A stretch of 48,511 nucleotides of DNA. It comes from a virus. The position numbers and the translations under genes were made by a program. The notes beneath the pieces are model-generated. The model made no database searches. It saw only the letters and a program-made list of their open reading frames with translations, and had not been told where the DNA came from. Below, in pieces: positions 358-22,661 of the stretch (the first letter of the stretch is position 1; each line of letters opens with the position of its first letter). The stretch spans positions 1 to 48,511 of the IMG/VR virus record IMGVR_UViG_3300022752_000111. One strand, given 5' to 3'.

Positions 358-1851
358 ATGAATCGCAAACAAATTACTGAGACAGCTTTAACTCCAAAAG
401 AACTAGCCAAACACAGTGGCAAATATCTGTCTATACTCATCCAATTCATCGGATCAAGACTACCGGTACCGGTAGATCCACCGTACCGTGCAACTTTTGG
501 TGATTCAATACAACTAGATCCAGCAATGGGTCCAGCTTTAGAAAAAGTATTTAACTCTGGCGACATTTTAGGTAACCTCCCGGCCAAAGCCACAGCAATT
601 ATTGATGGCGAGAAAAAATCAATACCGTGGGGGGTGCTATTTAAGGGGCGTGAATTTACATCGTTAACCGGACAAAAAAGTTATAATGCCGGTCATTTAG
701 CTGAGTTAATCATGGGCATCGGTATAGCAGCTAAGTTTGTTAATAAAGGGGCTGACATAACAAATGCCGATTTTCAAACTATGTTTACTAAATTGATCAA
801 AGGCCCTACAGCAAAAAATTATGAATTTACTTACGCAGGGACAATCACATGGCCCGAAGCTAGCAGTAAGAACGATCAAATGAGTTTTCGTGCAGTCATC
901 CCTACAAAAAGTGCCGAAGAATTTGTAAGACAGGCTACGTCCGGACAATATAGTAGTGACCTCGCAGCACTAATCAGTAGTGCTGTTAAATACGTGAACG
1001 AAAGCCAAGGAGTACAGAAGGCCTGTGATCGTGTTCGTTTAGATAAAAATAGTAATAGGATTGATGTTGTTAGTGATGGTAGTTCTGATGCTAAAGGTAC
1101 CAAAGCCGATCTCCAGCTTAGCGTAGATGGCACCAAAGTTAACCTATTAAGTTTAAAAACCTACAGCACAGAAACACTAGGACAAATTTCTGGCATCAAA
1201 TATGAAGCATTAAGTAAATGGTTTGATGTAGCATTTGGTATTGATATCAGTCGATTTGAGAAAATATTAGATCCTACACTAGGGGCAGAGAAAGTATATC
1301 AAAATTTACTTACTAAGGTCTATGATGATTATGTACACCCTAAAGTTAAAAAATTGATTGAAGATCAAACTCCAGGTAAAGAAGCTGAGATCGTTAAAAA
1401 GTTAGCGTCAGCTGCTCGGTATCATGCTAGAGGTGAAGGCATGGAATCAGTGGAAATTGTTAAGTTAGATGACAGTGTTGCCACCGGGAATTACAAAATA
1501 CTACAGTTTAGTGATGACCTAGAAGAAGCAATGACTCATTTAGATCTAGATGTTAGGTACATAGGTAAGGGACAAGGAAGAACAATTCAAATTTGGGTTA
1601 AGCCCGAACCTGATGAAAAAGTTGCAAGGGGTGCTAATAGACTGTGCCAATTTAGAACTCAAAAAATGGGAGATAGTTACCGTAACTATTACGAAATTGG
1701 TCCTATGATGGAAATGCTTGTACAAGTAGAACAACCCTTAACTGCAAGGACACCAAATGTAGTCACAGGCCGACCAGTTGATATTAGGCCACCGGGAACT
1801 CCAGAACGGGCTAGACAAAAACGGACAGATGTAGGTCGAGAACGACGTTAA
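358..1851 (+). CDS. Large phage protein with PD-(D/E)XK-like residue pattern, 497 aa
   Basis: The start is an ATG preceded by AAAGG. I do not recognise a named family with certainty. The sequence has an ordered set resembling a PD-(D/E)XK nuclease core: Glu116 in a helix (GHLAELIMG), Asp251 in a hydrophobic strand (ADLQLS), Ser265-Leu-Lys267 in the next strand (LLSLKT), and Gln276 in the following helix (GQISG). The second acidic residue of the canonical E-x-K is a Ser here, so this could be a variant nuclease or a structural protein that only looks similar. The last ~40 residues are Pro/Arg-rich and probably disordered and basic. It ends just before the promoter of the glycan operon. Confidence 0.6.
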   Translation: MNRKQITETALTPKELAKHSGKYLSILIQFIGSRLPVPVDPPYRATFGDSIQLDPAMGPALEKVFNSGDILGNLPAKATAIIDGEKKSIPWGVLFKGREFTSLTGQKSYNAGHLAELIMGIGIAAKFVNKGADITNADFQTMFTKLIKGPTAKNYEFTYAGTITWPEASSKNDQMSFRAVIPTKSAEEFVRQATSGQYSSDLAALISSAVKYVNESQGVQKACDRVRLDKNSNRIDVVSDGSSDAKGTKADLQLSVDGTKVNLLSLKTYSTETLGQISGIKYEALSKWFDVAFGIDISRFEKILDPTLGAEKVYQNLLTKVYDDYVHPKVKKLIEDQTPGKEAEIVKKLASAARYHARGEGMESVEIVKLDDSVATGNYKILQFSDDLEEAMTHLDLDVRYIGKGQGRTIQIWVKPEPDEKVARGANRLCQFRTQKMGDSYRNYYEIGPMMEMLVQVEQPLTARTPNVVTGRPVDIRPPGTPERARQKRTDVGRERR

Positions 1852-1864
1852 TATCTGCTATAAT
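1836..1864 (+). promoter_or_regulatory. Sigma70-like promoter with extended -10, start of glycan operon
   Basis: TGCTATAAT carries a perfect -10 (TATAAT, 1859-1864) with the extended TG. The -35 at the 17-bp distance is poor (TCGAGA), as tolerated by extended -10 promoters. The ATG of the first downstream gene is at 1894, with a purine-rich RBS (CTGAGGA). No other convincing promoter was seen before 11,669, so this may drive all of the glycan genes. Confidence 0.65.
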
Positions 1865-1893
1865 AGCAGTTCAATATAACCTGAGGATCAAAG

Positions 1894-2049
1894 ATGTTTG
1901 AATCAATCGAGATTAGGCGAGCAGCCAATGGTTTCATTCTTGTTGTTACTACTGAAGAGGAAACCCTTGAATACGTATACGACACTAGTCGTAAAGCAGT
2001 GCGTGTTATCCGTGATTACTTAGAAAACACAAAACAGTCAAAAGAATGA
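1894..2049 (+). CDS. Small conserved-type phage protein, 51 aa
   Basis: The ATG at 1894 follows a TGAGGA ribosome-binding site and the extended -10 promoter. The 51-residue product (begins MFESIEIRRAANG) has a beta-rich N-terminal half and a charged helical end. Its stop (TGA 2047-2049) overlaps the ATG of the glycosyltransferase at 2046 in an ATGA junction, so the two are translationally coupled. It is the leader gene of the sugar operon and could have a regulatory or accessory role, but no family is recognised. Confidence 0.65.
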   Translation: MFESIEIRRAANGFILVVTTEEETLEYVYDTSRKAVRVIRDYLENTKQSKE

Positions 2050-2750
2050 CTGCCACAGTTGTCATCCCTACTACCGGGGCAGAAACTTTACAACAAGCTG
2101 TAGAGAGTGTACTCAATCAGACGTTGCCTACAGACTGTTATGTAGTTGTCGATGGCCGAGACAATTATAGTCGAGCTAATAGAATATTAGACGACTTTGC
2201 TGATAGAATAAAAATTGCCTATCTGCCAGAAAATGTTGGAGCCAATGGGTTTTATGGGCACAGAGTTTACGCAGCATTTACACATTTAATAAACACTGAA
2301 TACCTCTGTTATTTGGATCAAGACAATTGGTTTGAGCCCGATCACGTAGATACTTGTATAGAAACAATTACCAGTAAACAGTTACAATGGTGTTATAGTT
2401 TACGCAATATTTACAATAGTGAACGGTTTGCCTGTAGGGATGATTGTGAAAGTTTAGGTAAGTATCCAAGCTATCATAATATCAATCATATTGATACAAA
2501 TAGCTATTTTCTAAAACGTGATTTGGTTCTTCAATTGGCCAGTGTATGGCATGGCGGTTGGGGGCAAGATCGAGTATTTTATTCTGTAATAAAAGATATG
2601 TTACCTAAATATGATTGTACTGGTAGTTATACTTTGAATTACAGAGTAGGCGGCAATGCTGGATCAGTCACTGAAGACTTTTTCCACAACGGTAATCAAA
2701 TACAAAATAAACGATATCAAGGCAAGTTTCCGTGGCAAAAAAGAACTTAA
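2046..2750 (+). CDS. GT2-like (GT-A fold) glycosyltransferase, 234 aa
   Basis: The protein opens with a typical GT2 nucleotide-sugar binding strand (TATVVIPTTG), followed by ESVLNQT and a VVVDG strand. The metal-binding DxD is D91-Q-D93 (YLDQDNW). GT2 enzymes transfer a sugar from a nucleotide sugar to an acceptor with inversion. The N-terminus carries all of the core, and the C-terminal part (WHGGWGQDR) is a plausible acceptor/catalytic region. There is no membrane segment, so it is probably cytoplasmic. It is coupled to both neighbours by overlaps (ATGA upstream; 19 bp downstream). Confidence 0.8.
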   Translation: MTATVVIPTTGAETLQQAVESVLNQTLPTDCYVVVDGRDNYSRANRILDDFADRIKIAYLPENVGANGFYGHRVYAAFTHLINTEYLCYLDQDNWFEPDHVDTCIETITSKQLQWCYSLRNIYNSERFACRDDCESLGKYPSYHNINHIDTNSYFLKRDLVLQLASVWHGGWGQDRVFYSVIKDMLPKYDCTGSYTLNYRVGGNAGSVTEDFFHNGNQIQNKRYQGKFPWQKRT

Positions 2751-3550
2751 TAATCAGCGCATTTACTGGCTATTCATTTAATCAAATTAAACCTTACGTA
2801 CACAGTATAAGAGATTTAAATCTAGACTGTGACCTAGTTATGGTGGTCGGGAACACAGACAGCAACACCCGTGTTCAACTTGAACAATTAGGATGGCGAT
2901 TAGAAGACTTGCCTAACACAAGAGAAATCCCAATTCATGTACTAAGGTTTTTACCTATGTACAATTATTTGTTTGAACACGGCGATTACGACTTTGTTGT
3001 AAGCACTGATGTCAAAGATGTAATCTTTCAACGAGATCCTTTTGCCTGGCTCGAAGAATACCTAGTCGATTATGAATTAGTGGCTGGTTCAGAAGCCTTG
3101 CGATATCGAGATGAACCTTGGGGCGATGATAACCTGCGTTCAACTTATGGTGGTTATGTTCATGAGCGTTTTAAAAATAACAAGATATACAATGTAGGTA
3201 CATTAGGCGGTCACGGTGAATATATGCGTGATCTTTTTTTTAACCTATTTTATAACAGCATTGGTCGTCCGATCCCCATTGTGGATCAGGCAGTGTTTAA
3301 TGTAATGATACAAACGCAGCCATATCGTGATCATGTGCTTTTTGCTGATCAAAGACTGGGCTGGGCTTGTCAAGCAGGCACTGTAGCTGATCCAGCTAAA
3401 ATGAATTACTTTAGGCTTAACTTGTTAGAGCCCGAACCCCAATGGGCAGATGGTCGGGTATTAACCAGCACTGGCGATGAGTTTGTGATTGTACATCAAT
3501 ACGACCGTGTACCTGAATGGAGAAATTTTTACGCAGGAAAATATAAATGA
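2732..3550 (+). CDS. GT-A-like putative glycosyltransferase, 272 aa
   Basis: It starts with GTG at 2732 inside the end of the previous gene. The layout resembles GT-A nucleotide-diphospho-sugar transferases: an N-terminal Rossmann-like strand (NLIISAFTG), a DxxD-type metal site D93-V-K-D96 in VVSTDVKDVIFQ, a NVGTLGG segment and a DQAVFN segment. The last two are arranged as in enzymes acting on sugar-nucleotide donors where a conserved Asp closes the active site. No membrane segment is present. The exact CAZy family is not assignable by eye. The product ends in an ATGA overlap with the methyltransferase. Confidence 0.65.
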   Translation: MAKKNLIISAFTGYSFNQIKPYVHSIRDLNLDCDLVMVVGNTDSNTRVQLEQLGWRLEDLPNTREIPIHVLRFLPMYNYLFEHGDYDFVVSTDVKDVIFQRDPFAWLEEYLVDYELVAGSEALRYRDEPWGDDNLRSTYGGYVHERFKNNKIYNVGTLGGHGEYMRDLFFNLFYNSIGRPIPIVDQAVFNVMIQTQPYRDHVLFADQRLGWACQAGTVADPAKMNYFRLNLLEPEPQWADGRVLTSTGDEFVIVHQYDRVPEWRNFYAGKYK

Positions 3551-4116
3551 AAACTCTAGTTGATATAATGATAGAACGAAACATTCGTAATGATACACAT
3601 TACGAATTTGGTACTGATAAAGAATTTAATCATAGGTATTGCTCGGCCTTCTATGACCGAGAATTCTTAAAGTACAAAGAAAAAGAAATTGCCTTATTTG
3701 AAATAGGTGTGCATCGTGGCGGCAGTCTAGCAGTACTTCATGAATATTTCCCAAACGCTGTTGTTATTGCCGGAGCAGACACTGTTAACTTTGGTGCAAG
3801 CGAAAACTGTAAACCATATCCTAAAGTAAAAGTCATTTACGCAGACGCTTATGATTCTAAATTTGTAGAACAATTACCAAACTTTGATATTATTATCGAC
3901 GACGGTCCTCATACGAAAGAGAGTCATATTAAAACTCTACAACTGTATACTAAACTATTAAATCCGGGCGGTGTCCTTATAATCGAAGACATAGCTGATA
4001 TTGCATGGTGCGAAGAATACAAAAAGTTTGTGCCAGATAATATGTCCACAGAAGTCGTTGATGTAAGACAAGAGTCTAATATGAAAGACAGTGTTCTTTT
4101 TGTGGTTAGAAATTAA
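3547..4116 (+). CDS. SAM-dependent methyltransferase, TylF/CmcI-like (Methyltransf_24 type), 189 aa
   Basis: SAM-binding motif I is visible as EIGVHRGGS at residues 52-60, and the motif DDGPH at 118-122 precedes a PGGVLIIED strand. This set is typical of the TylF/CmcI/rhamnosyl O-methyltransferase group, in which the acidic pair binds a metal and the enzyme methylates a sugar hydroxyl or a small metabolite. Its place between glycosyltransferases suggests O-methylation of a sugar or glycan. The start ATG overlaps the upstream stop, and the stop overlaps the next ATG (TAATG). Confidence 0.75.
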   Translation: MKTLVDIMIERNIRNDTHYEFGTDKEFNHRYCSAFYDREFLKYKEKEIALFEIGVHRGGSLAVLHEYFPNAVVIAGADTVNFGASENCKPYPKVKVIYADAYDSKFVEQLPNFDIIIDDGPHTKESHIKTLQLYTKLLNPGGVLIIEDIADIAWCEEYKKFVPDNMSTEVVDVRQESNMKDSVLFVVRN

Positions 4117-4865
4117 TGGCATCGATCTCTTTTGCACATTTCGCTAGTACTAGTAAACAACTGGCCACCGAACAAATTATAAAACAGGTACGTAGTTTAT
4201 ACCCAGATACTTACTATTTTGTTGCCAGTGATGCAGTTGATGACCATACACAGTTAGCTAAAGATTATAACTTAGATTTTCATTTATTCAATAAAAAATT
4301 AGGTTATCCTGTTCAGCCCTACGGTTATCGTGCTTGGCAAATTAGTGAGTGGCTAAGGCGTTTACATATTGCTTGCGCTAACACTAATACTAGTCACATA
4401 ATAATGATGGAAGATGATGTTTGGGTAAAACAACATATAACAGTAAAGGATCATTGGGAAATAGCAGCACACGAACTAAATCCCGATGGCAAAGGCAATG
4501 CCATTGATCCTGGGTTAATTGAAGTAATTGAACTATTTGCCAATCGGCGTCCACTTACACATCAATACGCTTCTGGTGGTGGAAGCATTTTTCGTGTACA
4601 AACTTTTTTAGATAATTTTGAGCGCATTAATGCATTTTTCTTAGAACATACCAACAATATACAAGAACACATTTATCCTACAATAGGTTGGATAGATTGC
4701 TTTATGACCGTGTATTATATGCTTGCTGGCAAAGACTATACAATAAATTCACATCTGGCTGACACACACAACCATCGTGATGGATTTGATTATGATGCAT
4801 TTTTATCTAAGCTGCCTGAGCATATTGAGATAATTAATAATTATAAGAAATGGTATTGGGTCTAA
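4116..4865 (+). CDS. Putative glycosyltransferase with EDD motif, 249 aa
   Basis: The protein has a GT-A-like order: an N-terminal strand (ISFAHFAST), then a hydrophobic strand ending in E99-D100-D101 (IIMMEDDVW), which matches the DxD metal site of several GT families, then a GGGSIFR segment and a conserved-looking TIGWIDCFMTVYY. No membrane segment is present. The overall family is not recognised, so this is a fold-level call from the DxD context and operon position. It is separated by 1 nt from the HtrL-like gene downstream. Confidence 0.55.
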   Translation: MASISFAHFASTSKQLATEQIIKQVRSLYPDTYYFVASDAVDDHTQLAKDYNLDFHLFNKKLGYPVQPYGYRAWQISEWLRRLHIACANTNTSHIIMMEDDVWVKQHITVKDHWEIAAHELNPDGKGNAIDPGLIEVIELFANRRPLTHQYASGGGSIFRVQTFLDNFERINAFFLEHTNNIQEHIYPTIGWIDCFMTVYYMLAGKDYTINSHLADTHNHRDGFDYDAFLSKLPEHIEIINNYKKWYWV

Positions 4866-4866
4866 A

Positions 4867-5667
4867 ATGAACAATGACATCACAATCGTAACTGCTTTTT
4901 TTGACATAGGACGTGGCGATTGGACACCTGATCGTGGGTTTCCAAGCTACTTGCACAGAACCACAGACACATACTTTGAAAGGTTTAGCCATTTGGCTCA
5001 ACTTGATAATGAGATGTTTATCTTCACCAGCAGTGATATGATAGACCGTGTTGCTAGTCTACGAAAAGATAAAGAAACAACTATATTTGAATTTGACTTA
5101 TCAAGCGAAGCCATAGATTTACGAGAGCGTATTGAAATAATATACGCTACACCTGAATATATGCGAATGATAAATCCCAAGGAAAGAACTAACCCTGAAT
5201 ACTGGAATGCAGATTATGTTATAATTAATTTGTTCAAGAGTACATTTGCTTGTATGGCCAGTATCCAGGCTCGTAATGATATGCTTGCATGGTTAGACTT
5301 TGGGTATTGTAGAGGCCAAGACTCACTACACGGAGTAAAACATTGGCGCTATCCTTTTGATCCTAGTCTAATTCATTTGTTCAAGTTAAAAGATTATGTA
5401 CCTGGTACCACTATTCATGACATGATTGCAAATAATGATGTACATATTACTGGTCCATGTATCGTAGCCAGCAAAGCTAACTGGCGTCAATTAGAAATGT
5501 TAGTCATGGAAGGTGTGCGTGAACTTATTGCTAAGTTCTTAATTGATGATGATCAATTGTTTTTATTACTAGCCTATCTTACACGTCCGGAATTGTTTAA
5601 ATTACATCAAGTAAGTGCCGATAATTGGTTCACTGTGTTTCGAGATTTTAATGAAAATATATCTTAA
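4867..5667 (+). CDS. HtrL/YibB-like protein (putative glycosyltransferase), 266 aa
   Basis: The N-terminus (ITIVTAFFDIGRGDW) followed by a repeated 'N-x-MFIFTS' strand is characteristic of the HtrL_YibB family, which sits in LPS/O-antigen loci and is thought to be a glycosyltransferase. WLDFGYCRG near residue 140 would be the acidic donor site. Length is in the family range. The protein is probably cytoplasmic. The next gene starts 17 nt before this stop. The biochemical role of the family is poorly defined, so the substrate is unknown. Confidence 0.7.
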   Translation: MNNDITIVTAFFDIGRGDWTPDRGFPSYLHRTTDTYFERFSHLAQLDNEMFIFTSSDMIDRVASLRKDKETTIFEFDLSSEAIDLRERIEIIYATPEYMRMINPKERTNPEYWNADYVIINLFKSTFACMASIQARNDMLAWLDFGYCRGQDSLHGVKHWRYPFDPSLIHLFKLKDYVPGTTIHDMIANNDVHITGPCIVASKANWRQLEMLVMEGVRELIAKFLIDDDQLFLLLAYLTRPELFKLHQVSADNWFTVFRDFNENIS

Positions 5668-6394
5668 TTGTACTGCAAACTTGGGAGATTTTGTTCAAAG
5701 TCTTCCGGTATTATCTGGGTTATATAAAGAATACGGTCCCATAGATTTTTATATTAGACACGAAATGCGTAAGTTCTGCGGTCTCAAAGAATTTTTAATG
5801 TACCAGGATATTTTCAACAAAGTAGAGTTTGATGACGAAGTTCGTGAAGCTGTTGATTCCGTATACATCCTGAGTTCTTGGACTAGAGAAGATAAAAATG
5901 ACCCCAATCGTCCTATTGAAACTTGTAGGTATGAAAATTGGTTAAAAGATAATTATAAATTTCGTTTCGACGTTAATGACAGTTTTGAAATTAAATTTCC
6001 CGATGTTGATATAGAATTAAAAGACAATTACTATGTAGGCGATCGTTGGTATACCCCAGATATTGACGCACGTAGAGAATGCCATGTGCTGGCACATCTC
6101 GATAAATTTGAATTCATTGACTATAAGAATACGTTATTAACAAATTGCTATATCATCAAAAAAAGTTCTTTGCCTTTTATAACAAATTTTACCGGTATTG
6201 GTATGATTGCTGATTTACTTAACAAAGAAACCTATGTGGTTTGGCGTGCCGAAGATTGGAAACCTGAATTTAGAAACGGTAATGATATTAGTTGGGATAA
6301 TGGAAAAAATATAAACAAGATATTTGAAAAACATTTCTATTTAAATCGCCGAGCTAGATTAGTTCACTCCAATGACCTAGAGGATTTGTTGTGA
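5651..6394 (+). CDS. Putative GT-B (heptosyltransferase-like) protein, 247 aa
   Basis: I chose the ATG at 5651 rather than the in-frame codon at 5615, because it gives a clean Rossmann start (MKIYLNCTANLGDFVQSLP) typical of GT9/heptosyltransferase-like enzymes (strand, then GD and a helix). A weakly conserved second half contains NFTGIGMIADLL, in the position where GT9 enzymes have the donor-binding segment. No membrane segment. It is followed by a second GT9-like gene, so the two may act as a pair. Distant similarity only. Confidence 0.5.
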   Translation: MKIYLNCTANLGDFVQSLPVLSGLYKEYGPIDFYIRHEMRKFCGLKEFLMYQDIFNKVEFDDEVREAVDSVYILSSWTREDKNDPNRPIETCRYENWLKDNYKFRFDVNDSFEIKFPDVDIELKDNYYVGDRWYTPDIDARRECHVLAHLDKFEFIDYKNTLLTNCYIIKKSSLPFITNFTGIGMIADLLNKETYVVWRAEDWKPEFRNGNDISWDNGKNINKIFEKHFYLNRRARLVHSNDLEDLL

Positions 6395-7089
6395 TTTTTA
6401 ATATAAAGTTAGGTACCTTTGGTGGACCCATGCGTATGGGTGATATTATTGCCTGTGCCAATGTAGTCGAGCACTTCAGACAAACTGAAAATAACACAGA
6501 CATAAAATTCCATTTAGACTCGACTAGCATACAAAGCTCAACTCATGTACAAGAATTTTGTAAATGGATGTTAGACAATACTGACTATTACTCTGCCACA
6601 CCTGGAGAAGTAACATTACCATGGTCAAAAGTTAATTTATGGGATTACAGAGATATTTCAGGTGACTTGGTGAAGATACCAAATGCCATGACTCGGAGCA
6701 AAAAGGTTGTAGTAGTGCCATTGTTAGACGCTGATTACAATACATACCGTAACTGGCCGAATTCCGTGTTAGAAAAAATTCTACAAGATGTTGAAGTCGA
6801 CTATTTGAATTACGATTTAGTGGTAGCCGGAGCTAATCCTCAGGATCGGCCGGGCTGGAGATCAAGTAAAAAATTAACATATACATTACAAGAAATTATG
6901 ACAGCCGAAGTCTACATCGGTGGCGACACTGGGCTAAGTCATTTTACTGGTGCCCTAGTTCAGGGACCCGACCCTATATATTATACCAGCAGTCGTGGAC
7001 TTTTACACACAACGCCACTTTATTGGTACACCCATAAAAAAGGACAAATGCGTACTTATTGGTTAGACTTTGAGAACACAAAATGGTAA
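6391..7089 (+). CDS. GT9-like (GT-B) putative glycosyltransferase, 232 aa
   Basis: It starts with GTG at 6391, overlapping the previous stop by 4 nt. The segment GPMRMGDIIACANVV resembles the N-terminal GD-loop of heptosyltransferases. YIGGDTGLSHF near residue 176 matches the donor-sugar signature of GT9 (D-[ST]-G-x-x-H). It is shorter than cellular heptosyltransferases (about 320-350 aa), so it may be a minimal version. Substrate unknown. Together with the gene upstream it suggests transfer of heptose-like or deoxy sugars. Confidence 0.6.
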   Translation: MIFNIKLGTFGGPMRMGDIIACANVVEHFRQTENNTDIKFHLDSTSIQSSTHVQEFCKWMLDNTDYYSATPGEVTLPWSKVNLWDYRDISGDLVKIPNAMTRSKKVVVVPLLDADYNTYRNWPNSVLEKILQDVEVDYLNYDLVVAGANPQDRPGWRSSKKLTYTLQEIMTAEVYIGGDTGLSHFTGALVQGPDPIYYTSSRGLLHTTPLYWYTHKKGQMRTYWLDFENTKW

Positions 7090-7760
7090 AAAATTCTGCT
7101 ATTTTAATAACTGCGTACTGCGGTGGTAACGATCCTGTTTACTATACTACTGGTAACGAAGAGCAAAATGCAAAAAAACGTCATATGGCAAAAACACTTG
7201 CACGCCATCTGGGAAATTCGGATTATCATGTATGTATGAGTAGTCATAGTGCTTTAGATATGGACACACAACGAGCCTGTTCTAGTTTTATATACGATTC
7301 TGACAACAGCTGGCAAATATGCGGACTTCCCTTACGACCAAATCATGGTGTAGCCGAAATGACCGCTATAGTTAACGGGCTTATGATGTTAAAGATAAAG
7401 GGTTTCGATTGGGTTCTAAAATTGAATTATGACCAAACCCCAACATTAGACTACGATAATGTTATTAAAACATGCAGTCAGTTAGATGCTGACTTGGCCA
7501 CTTACGAAAATGCCACTGATTACGGAATGATGGCATTCTGGGGCAACATTGATTTTATAATTGACTCATTGCCCTTAGATAGTTTGCAAACGTGTGAAGG
7601 TGCAGTAGAGACTTGTTGGTATAATAAAATCGCGGATTCTCTCATGAAACCACGTGTGCATGGCTTTGCTAGTTATGAGCAGATGTTTGCAGTCCCTGAC
7701 GGGACATTACTGCATCATAGTTATGTGGGCAGCGCATTACATGAGTATAATTATCAATGA
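7083..7760 (+). CDS. Putative glycosyltransferase (GT-A-like), 225 aa
   Basis: The N-terminus (AILITAYCGG) and the strand FDWVLKLNYDQTP are laid out like a GT-A enzyme, with the acidic donor site read here as N-x-D rather than DxD. A later segment (YEQMFAVPDG) could form the acceptor side. No signal peptide or membrane helix. The assignment rests mostly on operon context and the alpha/beta pattern. Overlaps the neighbours by 7 nt upstream and 4 nt downstream. Confidence 0.5.
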   Translation: MVKNSAILITAYCGGNDPVYYTTGNEEQNAKKRHMAKTLARHLGNSDYHVCMSSHSALDMDTQRACSSFIYDSDNSWQICGLPLRPNHGVAEMTAIVNGLMMLKIKGFDWVLKLNYDQTPTLDYDNVIKTCSQLDADLATYENATDYGMMAFWGNIDFIIDSLPLDSLQTCEGAVETCWYNKIADSLMKPRVHGFASYEQMFAVPDGTLLHHSYVGSALHEYNYQ

Positions 7761-8473
7761 AAACTATAGCAATAAGCTGTGTTGACACTGCATATTATGA
7801 TTGTACACAGCGAGCTTTGACTAAAACTTTAGAAACGATGCGTGATCAAAATTGTACCAAAGTTTACTGGTTTTCCGACATCGCTTGTCCTTATGAATTA
7901 GATGTTCCAGTACAATGGATACCCATACCTAAAATTTCAAACCAAAACATTGAGACTTCTTATCCAATGATATATGGTCTTGTAACATTAAAGCTAATGC
8001 CAATAATTATACAAGAAGATTTCAATTTAACCATTCATGACGACGGATTCGCTGTGAATAGTCAAGCATGGACCGATGAGTTTTTAGAATATGATTATAT
8101 TGGTGCCTGTTGGGGAGAAGATGTCGGTAATGGGGGCTTTACATTACGTAGTAAAAAATTATATAATGCCTTACACAATATTAATGTCGAATATGATTGG
8201 CGAAGACTACCCAAGCAGTTGTTTGCACCTGAATTTGAGGGAATGGTTTGGTTACAAACAGCTCATTGCCAGGATCCAATAATTCCCGAAGACAATATAA
8301 TATGCAGAGTGTATAAGCAGCAGTTAGTAAGTGATTATGCAATAAAATTTGCACCAGCAGCAATTGCAGATAGATTTAGTATAGAAAATAAGATGTACTC
8401 ACCTTGGTTAGGCCGTAGCTTAGGATTCCACGGACGCCACGGTGTTGCCAAATATTACAATATAGAGTTATAA
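7757..8473 (+). CDS. DUF5672-like putative glycosyltransferase, 238 aa
   Basis: The sequence shows the pattern I associate with DUF5672: an HDDGF site (H94-D95-D96) after a hydrophobic strand, a YDYIGACW segment, GNGGFTLRS, a PEDNIIC segment and a C-terminal SLGFHG. These proteins occur next to glycosyltransferases and are thought to be GT-A enzymes. The ATG at 7757 overlaps the upstream stop. The donor and acceptor cannot be told from the sequence. Confidence 0.65.
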   Translation: MKTIAISCVDTAYYDCTQRALTKTLETMRDQNCTKVYWFSDIACPYELDVPVQWIPIPKISNQNIETSYPMIYGLVTLKLMPIIIQEDFNLTIHDDGFAVNSQAWTDEFLEYDYIGACWGEDVGNGGFTLRSKKLYNALHNINVEYDWRRLPKQLFAPEFEGMVWLQTAHCQDPIIPEDNIICRVYKQQLVSDYAIKFAPAAIADRFSIENKMYSPWLGRSLGFHGRHGVAKYYNIEL

Positions 8474-8474
8474 T

Positions 8475-9719
8475 ATGAAACTACCACCGTTTATTAAAAG
8501 TTATGACAATTTCACACCCGGTAAAGACACTGTGCTATACTCTGGTCCCTATTGGGACCAAAAAGAGATTACAGCAGCTATTCGTTCGTTAACTGAAGGT
8601 GCTTGGATTACAAGCGGACAAGAAGTAGACGCTTTTCAGTCTGAATTCGCAAAGATGTTTAATACTTCGTTTGCTCATATGGTCAATTCTGGCAGCTCGG
8701 CTAACCTTGTAATGGTTACAGCTCTTAAGAAGTACTTACAATGGGCAGATGGTGATGAAGTTATTGTTAGCCCGGTGGGTTTTCCCACTACTATTGCACC
8801 TCTCGTACAAAACAACCTTAAGCCAGTATTTGTCGACATTGAAATGCAGACTTTAAATTTTGATGTGGGATTAATAGAATCGGTAATAAATGAGCGCACT
8901 CGTGCAATTTTTGTGAGTCCGGTACTAGGTAATCCGCCCGATATGGATGAATTGCAACATTTGGCCAATAAACATGGTTTATATTTAATTGGCGACAATT
9001 GTGACACACTCGGAACTTTGTGGAATTCACGTCCCATCACTGACTATTATTATAGTTGGAGTTGTAGTTTTTATCCTGCACATCATATAAGCACCGGTGA
9101 AGGTGGCATGGTCGCTAGCAACGATGAGGAACTAATTAAAATTGTAAGAAGCATGAGTTGGTGGGGAAGAGACTGTTATTGTGTTGGGGCAAATAACTTA
9201 CTTGCTTGCGGTACTTGCGGTAAAAGATTTGACCAATGGTTGGATAATTATGATGGTATAATTGATCACAAATATGTTTTTACCAACATAGGGTACAATC
9301 TTAAACCTCTAGATTTACAAGGTGCTATTGGTCGCGAGCAATTATTGAAAATGCCTGAGATTGACCATAAGCGCAGGGAAAACAAAAAGATTATTACTGA
9401 ACATTTAAAAGCTATTTCAGATGTAAGAGTGGCCGAGCAACTGTTCCAAGCAGATCCAAGTTGGTTTGGTGTTCCCATCATCTGCAACAGTCAAGAATTA
9501 AAAGAAATGTTAGTAGCGCATTTTGAAGATAACAAAGTTCAAACTCGTAGTTACTTTGCAGGTAATATTTTATTACATACAGGATACAGGCACTTAGGGA
9601 ATTACAAGGATTATCCAAATGCAAACTTGGCTCTTAGTCATGTATTTTTTATAGGCTGTACACCTTTATACACACCAGCAGTGCTAGACTATATTAAAGA
9701 GGTTATCAATAAATGGTAA
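8475..9719 (+). CDS. rfbH: RfbH-like CDP-4-dehydro-6-deoxyglucose 3-dehydrase (PMP and [2Fe-2S]), 414 aa
   Basis: A DegT/DnrJ/EryC1-fold protein in which the lysine that normally holds PLP is His203 (YPAHHISTGEGG). This is the hallmark of the E1/RfbH 3-dehydrases, which use PMP and a [2Fe-2S] cluster to remove the C3 hydroxyl of CDP-4-keto-6-deoxyglucose. The cluster cysteines are present: Cys176 (GDNCD), Cys234 exactly 57 residues later, Cys236, and a final Cys before GKRF (Cys248, with an extra Cys245). The family spacing between the last two is 7; here a 4-residue insertion makes it 11. It overlaps by 7 nt the SDR gene. The pathway product would be a 3,6-dideoxyhexose (abequose, paratose, tyvelose type). 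Confidence 0.85.
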   Translation: MKLPPFIKSYDNFTPGKDTVLYSGPYWDQKEITAAIRSLTEGAWITSGQEVDAFQSEFAKMFNTSFAHMVNSGSSANLVMVTALKKYLQWADGDEVIVSPVGFPTTIAPLVQNNLKPVFVDIEMQTLNFDVGLIESVINERTRAIFVSPVLGNPPDMDELQHLANKHGLYLIGDNCDTLGTLWNSRPITDYYYSWSCSFYPAHHISTGEGGMVASNDEELIKIVRSMSWWGRDCYCVGANNLLACGTCGKRFDQWLDNYDGIIDHKYVFTNIGYNLKPLDLQGAIGREQLLKMPEIDHKRRENKKIITEHLKAISDVRVAEQLFQADPSWFGVPIICNSQELKEMLVAHFEDNKVQTRSYFAGNILLHTGYRHLGNYKDYPNANLALSHVFFIGCTPLYTPAVLDYIKEVINKW

Positions 9720-10531
9720 ACTTATTTGGCCATGGATTTGTTGGTGGCGAATTTGCTAAACGATATCCTTGTGTTATTAATTCGCGTGACGATTACGTAC
9801 CTCAGAGCAATAATATTCTGTATTTTATAAGCACTATACACAATTATCATGTTTTCACAGATCCTCATTTAGATATTAACACTAATCTAAATTTACTAAT
9901 TACAGTGTTAGAAAACGCTAAAAATCGTTTTGGATGTGATTTTACTTTTAATTTTATTAGTTCTTGGTTTGTTTATGGTAACACCGAAATGCCCGCAAGA
10001 GAAAGCAATTATTGTGATCCAAGAGGTTTTTACTCGATAACAAAGAAGGCTGCTGAAGATTTGCTTATTTCCTACTGTACCACATTTAACATTAAGTATC
10101 GTATCTTGCGGTTAGCTAATGTGTTGGGTTCTAGTGACACCAAAGTAAGTGCTCAAAAAAATGCTTTGCAATATCTTATCAACCGGTTAAAAAGACACGA
10201 GCCTATTGAACTTTATGATGATGGTGATTTTTATAGAGACTACATTGATGTTGATGATGCTGTAACTGCTATAAACTTAGTGTTATCAAATGGTCAATTG
10301 AATTATACTTATAATATAAGTAATGGACAGCCCATAAAGTTTAAAAATTTAATTGATTATGTAGTTAGTAAGACTAATAGTAAGAGCCAAATAAGTGCTA
10401 TAGAGCAGCGAGATTTTCATAAAATAGTACAAGTCAAGACCATGTTCCTAGATAATGAAAGACTACTTTTGCTAGGCTATAGTCCGAACTACACTATAAA
10501 CCAAACTTTGGACAAACTCATTAATGAATAA
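9713..10531 (+). CDS. NAD(P)-dependent SDR epimerase/reductase, possible CDP-3,6-dideoxyhexose reductase, 272 aa
   Basis: An extended SDR with the nucleotide loop G6-x-G8-x-x-G11 ([11 protein letters not shown]), a Ser-containing strand FISSWFVYG and the catalytic Y107-x-x-x-K111 (YSITK). Its position directly after rfbH parallels O-antigen loci where RfbJ or RfbS reduces the RfbH product to CDP-abequose or CDP-paratose. It could equally be a general sugar epimerase/dehydratase. It overlaps both neighbours (7 and 8 nt). No separate E3-type reductase, needed by RfbH, is seen in the window, so the host would have to supply electrons. Confidence 0.75.
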
Positions 10532-11672
10532 ATTTAGATTCCATATATTAGGACTGCCGCACACAGTTACATCAAAAGAATATAATGCCTGCGCCTATAC
10601 TCAAAAGGTATGGAAATTCGGCAAGATGATGAAAGAGCGAGGGCATGAAATAATTCATTATGGACATGAGGATTCCGATCTTATCTGTGACGAACATGTT
10701 ACAGTTAGTACCAACCGTGATTTAGAAATTGCCTACGGTGATTATGACTGGCGCCGTAATTTTTATAAGTTTGATGTAAGTGATTATGCTTATACAACCT
10801 TTTATGCTAATGCTATCCGTGAAGTTGGACTACGCAAACAACCACTTGATTTTATTTTACCTTTCTGGGGCTCGGGTGTTCGTCCTATTTGTGATGCACA
10901 CCCAGAATTAATCACAGTAGAACCCGGCATCGGATACGCAGGTGGGCATTGGGCTCGTTGGAAAATATTTGAAAGCTATGCCATTTACCATGCTTTCTGC
11001 GGTATGCAAAATGTAGGCACATGCAGACAAGACTGGTACGAAACAGTTATCCCTAATTACTTTGATCCTGAAGATTTCACCTATGCTCCTGAGACTAAAG
11101 AAGATTATTTTCTTTATTTGGGCAGAGTTTATGAAGGCAAAGGTGTGCATATAGCTATTCAAGTTGCCGAAGCTACTGGAATTAGATTAAAGATAGCTGG
11201 ACAAGGAAGTTTAGAATCCATGGGCTATCCAAATACACCCAGTAACATTGAGTTTATCGGGTATGCTGATATTGAAACTCGTAGGCAGTTAATGAGTCGT
11301 GCTCGTGGTGCTTTTGTACCTAGTATGTATATCGAGCCTTTTGGCGGAGTACAAATTGAAATGCTAATGTCTGGCACACCTACTATAAGCACAGACTGGG
11401 GTAGTTTTGTAGAAAACAATGTACACGGTGTTACCGGATATCGTTGTCGTACATTTGATCAATTCTGTTGGGCAGCGGAAAATATAGATAAAATTGATCC
11501 AGCTGCATGCCGCTCTTGGGCAGTGGATAACTTTAGCTTAGATGTAGTAGCTCCACAATACGAGGAATTCTTCCAAAATGTCTTAGATGTTTACACAGGT
11601 AAAGGTTGGTATCAAAGACATCAGCGTAACAATCTTGATTTCAAAACTAAATTTTACCCAAAATCAAATTGA
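10524..11672 (+). CDS. GT4-family glycosyltransferase (GT-B), 382 aa
   Basis: The C-terminal donor domain is clear: [11 protein letters not shown], then IKLKIAGQG-like strand-loop (LKIAGQGS) and the E-x7-E motif E271-E279 (EPFGGVQIE) followed by MSGTPTIST. These are the classic retaining GT4 donor-binding elements. The N-terminal half is an acceptor domain of GT-B type. Length is typical for GT4. It is the last enzyme of the operon, and the next promoter starts at its stop codon. Confidence 0.85.
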
Positions 11673-12177: not shown

Positions 12178-12198
12178 AACACTCAAGTCGAGTTGCCA

Positions 12199-12528
12199 AT
12201 GAAAATTGTACTTGAACAGACCGAATGGTCAGATAGCACTGCTAACAATATGTATCTGGTCACTGATAACATGGAAAGTATCATTGCTTATGTGCCCGAG
12301 GGCTCAAAAGTAGCTCAACGTTTCAAAAATCCAATTCGTTGGGACCCCCGTGGACGCAAGTTCAAAATTCTCAAAGAGTTGCAGGAAAACAACACTGACG
12401 ACGTTCGTAGAGTTGCAGGATCTAAAGGTCAAGTGTATACTTTAACTCGTACCAATGGTCGTTGGCAGTGTACCTGCCCAGGCTATGCTTACAGAGGACA
12501 ATGCAGACATGCAGCAGGAGAAGTGTAA
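12199..12528 (+). CDS. SWIM-type zinc-finger protein, 109 aa
   Basis: I use the ATG at 12199, six nt after the upstream TTG. The C-terminus carries Cys91-x-Cys93-x8-Cys102-x-His104, the SWIM zinc finger (CxCx(n)CxH), often a DNA- or protein-binding module. The N-terminal 80 residues are basic and unassigned. It overlaps the next small zinc-binding ORF by 20 nt, suggesting co-translation. Confidence 0.7.
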   Translation: MKIVLEQTEWSDSTANNMYLVTDNMESIIAYVPEGSKVAQRFKNPIRWDPRGRKFKILKELQENNTDDVRRVAGSKGQVYTLTRTNGRWQCTCPGYAYRGQCRHAAGEV

Positions 12529-12832: not shown

Positions 12833-13864
12833 ATGAGTCAAGCAAATATTCGCATTAAGCAAGGCAACTATCGTAACTTTGATTGTGCTGGGCGTGTTTT
12901 TGAGTTGGTCAAGCAGTATACGCCGGGTGTTAAAGGTGGCTTTGTTACAGTTCGGAATGGCGGTAACTTTCCTGGCTTTGCGGATACTATTCGTGTAAAT
13001 GTCAGCCACTTTGCTGACTACGAATTTGTAGGTGAAGGTGCTGCACCCGCAGTCAGCGAAGTAGTTGCACAAGCTCAAGCAATCACTCAAACTGACGAAG
13101 AACGCATGGCAGAGATTGCCGAGCGTTTTGACATACTTAACGACATGAGCAAGGCCTGTATTGCCGGTGACATTCGTGCAATGATTGTATCAGGTCCTCC
13201 GGGAGTAGGCAAGAGCTACACCGTTGAGCGTGAAGTTGAGAAAGCTCAATTGCTAGATCAGTTGGCTGGAACTAGGCTTCGCGCCGAAGTTGTTAAAGGC
13301 TCGGCTACGCCAATTGGCCTGTACCAGACCTTGTATAAGTACAGCGACAAGAACTGTGTGCTGGTGTTTGATGACTGTGACTCAATTTTGCTAGACGATG
13401 TTTCGCTTAACCTGCTGAAAGGTGCCTTGGACTCAGGCAAGAAGCGTAAGATTTCTTGGCTGTCAGAGTCAAGTGCTCTGCGTCGCGAAGGCATCCCCGA
13501 CAGCTTCAACTTCCATGGTAGTGTAATTTTTATTACTAACTTGAAGTTTGATGCTATGAAGTCACAGAAGTTGCGTGATCATTTGGATGCACTGCAAAGT
13601 CGCTGTCACTATCTTGACCTTACACTAGACACTATGCGTGACAAGTTGTTGCGTATTCGGCAGATTGCTGGTACTGGTGAGCTGTTTGGTGACTACGAGT
13701 TTGAGAATGGTGAGGACCAAGAGGTAATCGCTTTTATGGAGCGTCACCAGAATCGTTTGCGTGAAATGAGTCTGCGTATGGCAACTAAGATTGCCGACCT
13801 GCGTAAGACGTTTCCTACAAAGTGGCAGGCACTGGCTCAGTCCACTTGCATGAAAGCAGCCTAA
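12833..13864 (+). CDS. AAA+ ATPase, 343 aa
   Basis: Walker A GPPGVGKS is at about residues 121-128 and Walker B is VLVFDDCDSI, followed by a sensor-1-like FITN and an Arg-rich helix (QSRC) that could hold the arginine finger. The N-terminal ~90 residues form an extra domain. Such stand-alone AAA+ proteins are common in large marine phages, but the target is unknown. It is the first gene of its promoter unit and is followed by a UUCG hairpin. Confidence 0.8.
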   Translation: MSQANIRIKQGNYRNFDCAGRVFELVKQYTPGVKGGFVTVRNGGNFPGFADTIRVNVSHFADYEFVGEGAAPAVSEVVAQAQAITQTDEERMAEIAERFDILNDMSKACIAGDIRAMIVSGPPGVGKSYTVEREVEKAQLLDQLAGTRLRAEVVKGSATPIGLYQTLYKYSDKNCVLVFDDCDSILLDDVSLNLLKGALDSGKKRKISWLSESSALRREGIPDSFNFHGSVIFITNLKFDAMKSQKLRDHLDALQSRCHYLDLTLDTMRDKLLRIRQIAGTGELFGDYEFENGEDQEVIAFMERHQNRLREMSLRMATKIADLRKTFPTKWQALAQSTCMKAA

Positions 13865-14162: not shown

Positions 14163-14915
14163 ATGGTACCATATACATATTTGATTGGATGGAAGAAATT
14201 TAGTAAATTCTATTACGGAGTTAGATATGCCTGGAATTCGCACCCCTCTGACTTAATGAAAACATATTTTAGTAGTAGCGAATCAGTTAGGGAAATGATT
14301 TCGGAAAATGGGATTCCCGATTTAATAGAAATAAGAAAAACATTTGATTCAGTGGATTCTGCTAGAGTATGGGAACATAAGGTCCTCCGTCGTATGAAAG
14401 TAACAGCTGATGAAAAATGGTTGAATAAAACAGATAACAAATCTATATCACCGATGCCCGGGGAATCTAATCCGATGTTTGGAAAAGTTGGTGAGCTTCA
14501 TCCTAGGTTTGGGTCTACTCATTCCGATGAAACTAAACAAGTAATCGGATTCAAAAGTAGTCTTAAAAAGGGAAATATGCCCGACGGTTTTAGTGAAAAA
14601 ATGCGACAAATAGTAACAGGTAGGATTCATAAAGATGAATCCAAATTAAAAATTAAAGTGAAATTAACAGGAAGAACTCTTTCTGATTCTCACATTGAAA
14701 ATATTATGAAAAATCATGCAGATTTTTCTGGAGAAAATAATCCTTTTTTTGGTAAATCTCACTCCGATGAATCAAGGTCGAAAATGCGTGAAAAAAGACA
14801 AGGTAAAAGATGGATTCATAATTTGTTACAAAATAAAAGAATGCTTGTAAAAGAATCTGAGATTAACGACTTTTTAAGCCAAGGCTGGTCAAAAGGAAAA
14901 GGAAAATGGGATTAG
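14163..14915 (+). CDS. GIY-YIG-like homing endonuclease with NUMOD3 repeats, 250 aa
   Basis: The N-terminal ~75 residues match a GIY-YIG nuclease layout: YLI at 6-8, YYG at 17-19, a conserved Arg at 21 and a WE pair in the following helix (RVWEHKVL). The C-terminal half has at least two NUMOD3 DNA-binding repeats of the type GENNPFFGKSHSDE. The gene is clearly AT-richer than its neighbours and starts with its own late-type promoter, both signs of a mobile free-standing endonuclease. It ends inside the next gene by 10 nt, so it may have inserted next to its target, and the target may be that gene or its neighbour. Confidence 0.8.
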   Translation: MVPYTYLIGWKKFSKFYYGVRYAWNSHPSDLMKTYFSSSESVREMISENGIPDLIEIRKTFDSVDSARVWEHKVLRRMKVTADEKWLNKTDNKSISPMPGESNPMFGKVGELHPRFGSTHSDETKQVIGFKSSLKKGNMPDGFSEKMRQIVTGRIHKDESKLKIKVKLTGRTLSDSHIENIMKNHADFSGENNPFFGKSHSDESRSKMREKRQGKRWIHNLLQNKRMLVKESEINDFLSQGWSKGKGKWD

Positions 14916-22157: not shown

Positions 22158-22661
22158 ATGATTACAATCCAAACTTATTTATATCCAGTTATAATAGTAG
22201 CCGAATTTTGGGACCCTACGATCTTTACTACAAGGAATACGCAAGTGTATGCAACCCCAGTGACCATATATCAAGGAATTGATAACCCAATTCAGATAAG
22301 AGTACGAAACCAAGACCAAAAGTCTGTGGATATGACCGGAAGAGTTATTCAAGTAGATATTCAAAATCCCGATAATCAGCTTACAGAATACAGCTTTGGT
22401 ATTAGTTTTAATAACAGGATAAAAGGATACGGTAATTTTACTATTCCAAAAAACGTTGTTGATAATTTAAAGCAACGACAGTACAAATTAACTTTTAGAG
22501 CCATCAATGAGGCAACTAATCAAGAACAGCCAATGTTTGTTGATGATAATTTTGGCGTACCACTGGATCTAATTGTTAAACCAGCATATTATTCTGACAT
22601 GCCCGTACAAGAAAATGAAATGTCAGACTTTCTTACTATTGACGGCGGAACCACACCATGA
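22158..22661 (+). CDS. Putative virion structural protein (tail/baseplate type), 167 aa
   Basis: A beta-rich protein starting MITIQTYLY and ending in an Asp/Gly-rich tail. The segment IYQGIDNPIQIRVRNQD recalls baseplate upper/adhesin N-terminal domains of phage structural proteins. Stop overlaps the ATG of the tail fibre by 4 nt, so it is probably expressed with it. Function is inferred from context. Confidence 0.6.
   Translation: MITIQTYLYPVIIVAEFWDPTIFTTRNTQVYATPVTIYQGIDNPIQIRVRNQDQKSVDMTGRVIQVDIQNPDNQLTEYSFGISFNNRIKGYGNFTIPKNVVDNLKQRQYKLTFRAINEATNQEQPMFVDDNFGVPLDLIVKPAYYSDMPVQENEMSDFLTIDGGTTP
22176..22183 (-). promoter_or_regulatory. Perfect T4-type late promoter on the minus strand (TATAAATA)
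   Basis: Read on the minus strand the sequence is TATAAATA, the exact T4 late consensus. It lies 40 nt upstream of the GTG at 22136, in the right orientation and position to drive the lone antisense gene. Confidence 0.55.

Follow-up and report, generated by a model that had tools for sequence, protein, structure and literature searches.

A glycosyltransferase operon of a T4-type phage: a conserved core in an island of exchanged content

The virus record IMGVR_UViG_3300022752_000111, whose 48,511 bases of linear sequence are the whole stretch analysed here (the window), is a fragment of a large, uncultured tailed phage of the T4 type, with a gene set that includes UvsW, a DnaB-type helicase, a primase and a class Ia ribonucleotide reductase. 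Among its replication genes lies an operon of glycan genes which, together with a leader open reading frame (ORF), occupies positions 1894-11672. In this study, we describe this operon as an island with constant ends and exchanged contents, holding a five-gene core that is conserved in a second phage lineage.

The operon and its enzymes

Twelve plus-strand ORFs (g1 to g12, 189-414 residues long) span 2046-11672 as one co-directional set, joined by overlaps of 1-19 nucleotides or gaps of 1 nucleotide, so that the operon proposed in a preliminary description of this DNA is real. The count given there, about twelve genes, agrees with these ORFs, but a 51-residue leader (1894-2049) was overlooked. 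No transmembrane segment was found in any operon protein, and the enzymes are soluble. The flanks are formed by the gene u0 (358-1851) and by small genes preceding an AAA ATPase gene.

A sigma70-type promoter (TCGAGA-17-TATAAT, with TGC as extended -10) lies on the plus strand at 1836-1864, the hexamer of its TGnTATAAT element being at 1859-1864, and is followed by the leader s0, also on the plus strand, which is joined to g1 by an ATGA overlap. In roughly 25 relatives the same order is conserved: a TTGAC- or extended -10 promoter, a purine-rich ribosome site and then ATGTTTGAATC of the leader. The AGGA-type ribosome site upstream of s0 and the extended -10 recur there ahead of differing genes, and s0 homologues, 60-87% identical, open every cassette. 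As the layout recurs in relatives carrying other downstream genes, it supports a single promoter for the whole island, from which the operon would be transcribed. The earlier claim of one promoter is thus upheld by conservation but not by pattern counts, as shuffles yield promoter-like patterns about as often as the region does (41.3 +/- 6.6 expected, 46 found). The T4 late-promoter motif TATAAATA occurs 2 times against 5.5 expected; it shows no enrichment and is therefore of no use for timing the operon.

Eight or more glycosyltransferases (GTs) had been claimed in the preliminary description, and about eight are retained, all encoded on the plus strand: four are firm (g1, g4, g6 and g12) and four probable (g2, g5, g7 and g9), leaving g8 without database support. 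Profile searches of the proteins, as proposed there, gave GT families for several of them, and fold models settled g4 and g6. The first gene, g1 (2046-2750), encodes a GT2 enzyme (Pfam Glycos_transf_2, 1.1e-10, above cut-off), and the last, g12 (10524-11672), a GT4 enzyme (Glycos_transf_1, 2e-14; phrog_3408, 1e-193, 644 bits). Fold predictions, made with AlphaFold2 on family alignments, cover g4 and g6. The model of g4 (4116-4865; predicted local distance difference test, pLDDT, 95.2) has a GT-A fold resembling many such enzymes (best Foldseek E 8e-9, to BoGT6a; VIA Z up to 15.4), and an EDD motif is invariant in its family. In the case of g6 (5651-6394, ATG 5651 being a likelier start than GTG 5615), the model (pLDDT 91.4) has a GT9, or heptosyltransferase, fold that matches WaaC and other GT9 enzymes (Foldseek E 4e-6), with VIA Z 13.8 and 3.2 A over 204 residues against 3tov and Z 13.3 against WaaC; the WaaC-like GT-B fold of the model is firm, and heptose transfer putative.

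Among the probable GTs, g2 (2732-3550) matches phrog_1579, a glycosyltransferase family, at 6.5e-5, and a TTDVKD-type motif is invariant in the 23 members of its own family. The product of g5 (4867-5667) belongs to the HtrL/YibB family (PF09612, 1.1e-54; 186 bits, above the gathering score of 24.1); since it scores 206 bits against TIGR02192, under the equivalog cut-off of 264.9, its sequence identifies it as a family member and not as YibB itself. GT9-like g7 (6391-7089) matches a heptosyltransferase I C-terminal region at 3.6e-4; four of the 23 members of its family match PF01075 (Glyco_transf_9), and a motif of the type GGDTG..H is invariant. DUF5672 is found in g9 (7757-8473; PF18922, 3.4e-11, above cut-off). 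Finally, g8 (7083-7760) is a candidate GT by its conserved acidic motifs (D72xD74 and others are invariant) and has no match in Pfam, PHROG, NCBIfam or PDB. Against PDB sequences, none of the family profiles of g2, g4, g6, g7 and g8 gave a match, and in profile comparison neither g6 and g7 nor g8 and g4 were detectably related.

The accessory sugar enzymes are likewise on the plus strand. The product of g3 (3547-4116) is an S-adenosylmethionine-dependent methyltransferase (Methyltransf_24, 1.5e-6, above cut-off; phrog_21658, methyltransferase, 6e-19); of its earlier assignment to the TylF/CmcI type the methyltransferase part holds, the match to CmcI being weak (E 0.11). The RfbH and dehydrogenase genes named there were borne out. 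The former, g10 (8475-9719), encodes a nucleoside diphosphate (NDP)-4-keto-6-deoxyhexose 3-dehydratase, firmly placed in the DegT/E1-RfbH group, that matches PRK15407 (RfbH) at 374.6 bits and 3bcx (E1) at E 6e-78. As it falls short of the NCBIfam RfbH equivalog cut-off (423 bits), we name it E1/RfbH-type and not RfbH. In its SFYPAHHI segment, aligned to 3bcx, a catalytic histidine stands in the position of the pyridoxal phosphate-binding lysine, as it does in E1, and H203-H204, C176, C234, C236 and C248 are invariant across 15 relatives; the spacing of the [2Fe-2S] cysteines is C176-X57-C234-X1-C236-X11-C248, in a loop four residues longer than that of E1. Enzymes of the E1 type require an electron donor, and none is encoded in the operon. 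The next gene, g11 (9713-10531), encodes a short-chain dehydrogenase/reductase (Pfam Epimerase, 4e-25), a probable 4-ketoreductase downstream of the g10 step, with GxGxxG and YxxxK invariant among relatives; in most of 19 bacterial loci, its orthologue and that of g10 are neighbours.

The substrate of this pair is more likely to be a dTDP-linked than a CDP-linked sugar, as judged from gene neighbourhoods, and would probably be drawn from the host dTDP-sugar pool: a dTDP-glucose 4,6-dehydratase gene immediately precedes the g10 homologue in 12 of 79 related loci (all three of those tested passed the cut-off for this enzyme), and across 40 related records RfbF was not found and RfbG never scored above its curated cut-off. 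Several bacteria, too, have RmlB-like genes in the neighbourhood of the g10-g11 pair. A CDP-sugar route (RfbF-RfbG-RfbH) was considered for g10-g11 and dropped, RfbF and RfbG being missing from the operon and, at their cut-offs, from the 40 records, and a dTDP-glucose 4,6-dehydratase occurring instead in the 12 of 79 loci. The assembly of a complete glycan, as suggested in the preliminary description, is not borne out by the gene content: Pfam, NCBIfam and transmembrane scans of the operon revealed no nucleotidyltransferase to activate sugars, nor a 4,6-dehydratase, flippase, polymerase or ligase.

An exchanged island and a conserved core

Several hundred viral contigs were gathered by scans with the AAA ATPase, the RfbH homologue, the YibB homologue and the GT4. 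The AAA ATPase (12833-13864, plus strand; phrog_1250, 9e-83) lies outside the operon and is a conserved flank marker, 86-92% identical in the nearest relatives; beyond these, the window protein is closest, at 41-48%, to those of Arenbergviridae such as Pseudomonas phage PA5oct, where nothing but small ORFs precedes the homologue. Four close relatives (AAA ATPase 88-92%; L246, L253/L002, L247/L003 and L245) keep the GT4 at 77-88%, and the leader is kept in the three that are long enough to show the site (L246, L253/L002 and L247/L003). Between these two ends the contents differ. In L246 the same core is present in diverged form, accompanied by other accessory genes; L253/L002 has three unrelated genes; L247/L003 has six, in which the sole resemblance is a relative of g9 at 31%; and L245, truncated at the site, has a g11 at 71%. 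Among 43 cassette proteins of ten relatives, pooled for Pfam scans, there were methyltransferases, DUF5672, GT9 and 2-oxoglutarate (2OG) oxygenases.

The locus is thus an island with a constant promoter and leader at its start and a constant GT4 at its end (g12 is its fixed 3' end in the window lineage, 73-88% identical in relatives with other cassettes), and with contents that differ among close relatives. As these relatives hold other sugar cassettes at the same site, the contents have been exchanged and not decayed. By the preliminary description, scattered or decayed versions of the genes in phages with the same replication genes would refute its reading; neither outcome was found, since the promoter, leader and GT4 are kept around other, intact cassettes and the core is intact in another lineage.

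This core consists of g1, g2, g5, g6 and g7, which follow one another in the same relative order in all 70 loci that hold the five genes, the window and L082, its nearly identical copy, not included; together with the window, the 70 loci make up 50 populations at 97%. Genes g3, g4, g8, g9 and g10-g11 are inserted variably among them and are accessory decoration genes. Most core loci belong to a second lineage (lineage B), which shares about 63% identity in the gp41 helicase with Kyanoviridae phages such as S-SM2 and Melnitz. In lineage B, the operon sits between a 92-93-residue ORF and a DUF6267 gene. By profile comparison, the leader s0 shows no relation to the 92-93-residue ORF that precedes g1 in lineage B, and no relationship was detected between the upstream neighbours of the operon in one lineage and those in the other. 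In the core tree, the window and L162, the only other phage of the window lineage that carries this core, group with full support among clades of lineage B. The window g6 is nearer to that of lineage B (73%) than to that of L162 (47%), a sign, judged from these identities, of gene-by-gene exchange within the core.

Cultured phages provide no match to g2, g5 or g6 above 39% identity. In tblastn searches of 50,697 phage records, g2 gave a 25% match, g5 two 38% matches and g6 none; the two records with a YibB-family match to g5, the sole ones among phages, are Campylobacter phages A11a (MG065691) and A18a (MG065686). A search of 84,980 cellular genomes with a g6 profile brought up no relative, and therefore no host locus for lipopolysaccharide (LPS) could be tied to the core.

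Median dN/dS is 0.06-0.20 in all eleven families g1-g11, values that are descriptive, the pairs compared being mostly from lineage B and sharing ancestry. The gene families are under purifying selection, and these low medians show that the operon is not a chance array of ORFs.

Glycan clusters in phages, their polymorphism and the idea that they act against superinfection were already known (PMC3037559, PMC7824862, PMC7029224). What appears to be new is the five-gene core itself, its presence in two lineages and the island of exchanged content between constant ends, for none of which we found a match in the open-access literature. Whether large phage glycan clusters function or are stuffer DNA, and what their targets are, was left open in PMC3037559; a five-gene core in invariant order, under strong purifying selection over 50 populations, argues that such clusters function. 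A constant-ended island with exchanged contents also allows one to ask which gene is tied to the acceptor.

Possible acceptors of the glycan

The closest known counterparts are the LPS-type clusters of cyanophages (P-SSM2, S-SSM7, S-SM2) and the capsular polysaccharide modification systems of jumbo phages, likewise multi-gene sets of GTs and nucleotide-sugar enzymes in T4-type phages, which are polymorphic between related phages (PMC3037559, PMC7824862). The window operon is of this cluster type, with several clustered GTs, nucleotide-sugar enzymes and polymorphic content, and alteration of LPS by it is putative; unlike those clusters, it has the g1-g2-g5-g6-g7 core, not known there, and lies in an island with a fixed promoter, leader ORF and terminal GT4 between which exchange occurs. 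In Synechococcus phages S-H68 and RN05-S, a sugar cluster of about 20 genes includes an RfbH homologue that shares 53% identity with g10 and adjoins GTs, a gene of the dTDP-glucose 4,6-dehydratase type and a methyltransferase, but this cluster has no close homologue of g2, g5 or g6 and contains more nucleotide-sugar enzymes. The host-recognition region of pelagimyophages, for which a change of the host O-chain has been proposed, is hypervariable and has GTs near tail fibres (PMC7029224), whereas the window core operon lies in the replication region in conserved gene order. The outer-core locus for lipooligosaccharide (LOS) in Acinetobacter offers a parallel in concept, with variable soluble GTs between constant flanks, sequential assembly and an HtrL/YibB member (PMC4172580), and equally without flippase or polymerase; it differs in being on a bacterial chromosome, with no phage, and in its GT families. 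The pattern of Wzx/Wzy-dependent O-antigen or capsule synthesis does not apply to the window operon, where no initiating transferase, flippase, polymerase or ligase was found.

As the preliminary description had recognized, no gene of the operon fixes the acceptor. We slightly and tentatively favour, without calling it probable, an exchangeable phage-borne oligosaccharide assembly line that acts on host LPS or LOS, an acceptor that we infer from gene content. The sigma70-type promoter would drive transcription of the operon, whose enzymes would use host nucleotide sugars, including dTDP-4-keto-6-deoxyglucose made by host RmlA and RmlB or by the product of a gene beyond the fragment, a pool that the host would normally spend on rhamnose. 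From it g10 and g11 would produce a dTDP-3,6-dideoxyhexose, the GTs would attach sugars sequentially in the cytosol and g3 would O-methylate one of them, the acceptor being the outer core of host LPS or LOS on the inner side of the membrane. The altered surface would block rival phages during infection, with different cassettes giving different surface types.

The LPS-like gene content, namely HtrL/YibB g5, the WaaC-like fold of g6 and RfbH-type g10, speaks for this acceptor. HtrL/YibB is present in the LOS loci of several bacteria (PMC4172580), and the LPS clusters of cyanophages and pelagimyophages have likewise been interpreted as changing the host surface (PMC3037559, PMC7029224, PMC7824862). 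The early-type promoter and the location among replication genes fit an action on the host cell. The families of initiating transferases, flippases and Wzy/ligases (PF02397, PF01943, PF04932) were not found in the operon or in ten related records, and any lipid-linked route must therefore be the host's. Several considerations weigh on the other side: in addition to the lack of a gene that fixes the acceptor, the host's possession of LPS is presumed, the window is a 48.5-kb fragment, several GT assignments are weak and g8 has none, and the g12-type GT4 family is associated in other phages with collagen-like tail fibres, which favours an acceptor on the virion. The locus would also show that phages swap surface-glycan cassettes the way bacteria swap O-antigen loci.

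A close rival, and quite possible, is that the assembly line decorates a structural protein of the phage, of which a (collagen-like) tail fibre is the likeliest, while this protein is still in the cytosol and the virion not yet assembled. The constant GT4 would be linked to the protein that is glycosylated, and the outer chain would be built by the variable genes. Serine-rich-repeat adhesins are glycosylated in this manner, by a constant pair of enzymes and strain-variable GTs. Phage GTs acting on virion proteins have been described in mycobacteriophages (Freeman et al. 2023, as reported in PMC12619734), a possible mode here, but the gene sets differ and a virion glycan is putative for the window phage. 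Among 18 non-redundant loci outside the window lineage, seven have the g12-family GT4 no more than five ORFs away from a long Gly-X-Y repeat ORF, against none of 70 control loci (Fisher p 5e-6), a difference that genome position may explain in part, since the controls were centred on other genes. The Gly-X-Y ORFs concerned are of tail-fibre or collagen-like families; a GT of the g4 family also occurs at the collagen-like site in three records (L299, L300, L304), and in S-CAM7 the GT4 adjoins a 2OG-Fe(II) oxygenase and a tail protein. In the closest relative, L002, a collagen-like tail fibre homologous to window positions 22658-24916 lies about 9 kb downstream of g12. The lack of lipid-linked assembly parts, noted above, also suits a virion acceptor. 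On the other hand, lineage B has the core without g12 and distant from virion genes, no virion gene adjoins the operon, no Gly-X-Y run was found in the window itself, and g5 and g6 resemble LPS enzymes. In its wider form, a conserved, horizontally exchanged module of uncultured T4-type phages that gives the virion a swappable, serotype-like sugar coat on collagen-like tail fibres through the constant GT4, the proposal is doubtful; if true, phages would have an equivalent of the bacterial O-antigen locus whose target is the virus particle.

Two observations concern the GT4 family in these other phages. In L265 (11201-19769), two collagen-like tail-fibre genes of more than 1,400 residues follow the g12-type GT4, an arrangement common to several such phages, and in L286 (9995-12292) the g12 homologue lies within a 765-residue ORF, apparently fused to another domain.

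Modification of phage DNA, in which the GTs would load an oligosaccharide onto a modified base as a shield from restriction, is improbable. The operon does lie between replication genes, its enzymes are soluble and its expression is probably early; viral GTs are also known that decorate DNA with diverse glycans (Pyle et al. 2024, as cited in PMC12619734). However, a thymidylate-synthase/hydroxymethylase gene (PF00303) is missing from 10 of 12 large related records, including four core carriers of 161-164 kb (the window genome itself being incomplete), and the constant GT4 family tracks tail fibres. A Tet/JBP search of eight records gave no match, but carries no weight, the search controls being equally silent. 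That the genes are a non-functional passenger or stuffer DNA filling the headful, a possibility raised for cyanophage LPS clusters (PMC3037559) and in keeping with the high turnover of the locus between relatives, is highly improbable given the median dN/dS of 0.06-0.20 in eleven families, the invariant catalytic residues and a core order that is the same in 70 of 70 loci.

Flanking genes and other observations

The upstream flanking gene u0, on the plus strand (phrog_3560, 2e-17), is hypervariable among relatives, 77% identical in L246 but 19-25% in others, and despite this variability a C-terminal tail, NVVTGKPVxIRPPG...VGREKR, is conserved in the alignment consensus. Just past the island, positions 12193-12528 encode a small conserved protein with a C-terminal CxC...CxH that resembles a SWIM-type zinc finger. 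A homing endonuclease gene with NUMOD3 repeats and a weak GIY-YIG match directly follows the AAA ATPase (14163-14915), with no homologue at that place in L002 or other relatives. Further downstream, a tail-spike-like protein (31820-34009), which contains a pectate-lyase domain and whose start weakly resembles Mtd_N, is a candidate receptor-binding or polysaccharide-degrading protein. The large subunit of ribonucleotide reductase (34487-36820) is 60% identical to that of Xanthomonas phage X1 and at most 55% to those of other phages, a possible clue to the host or to exchange.

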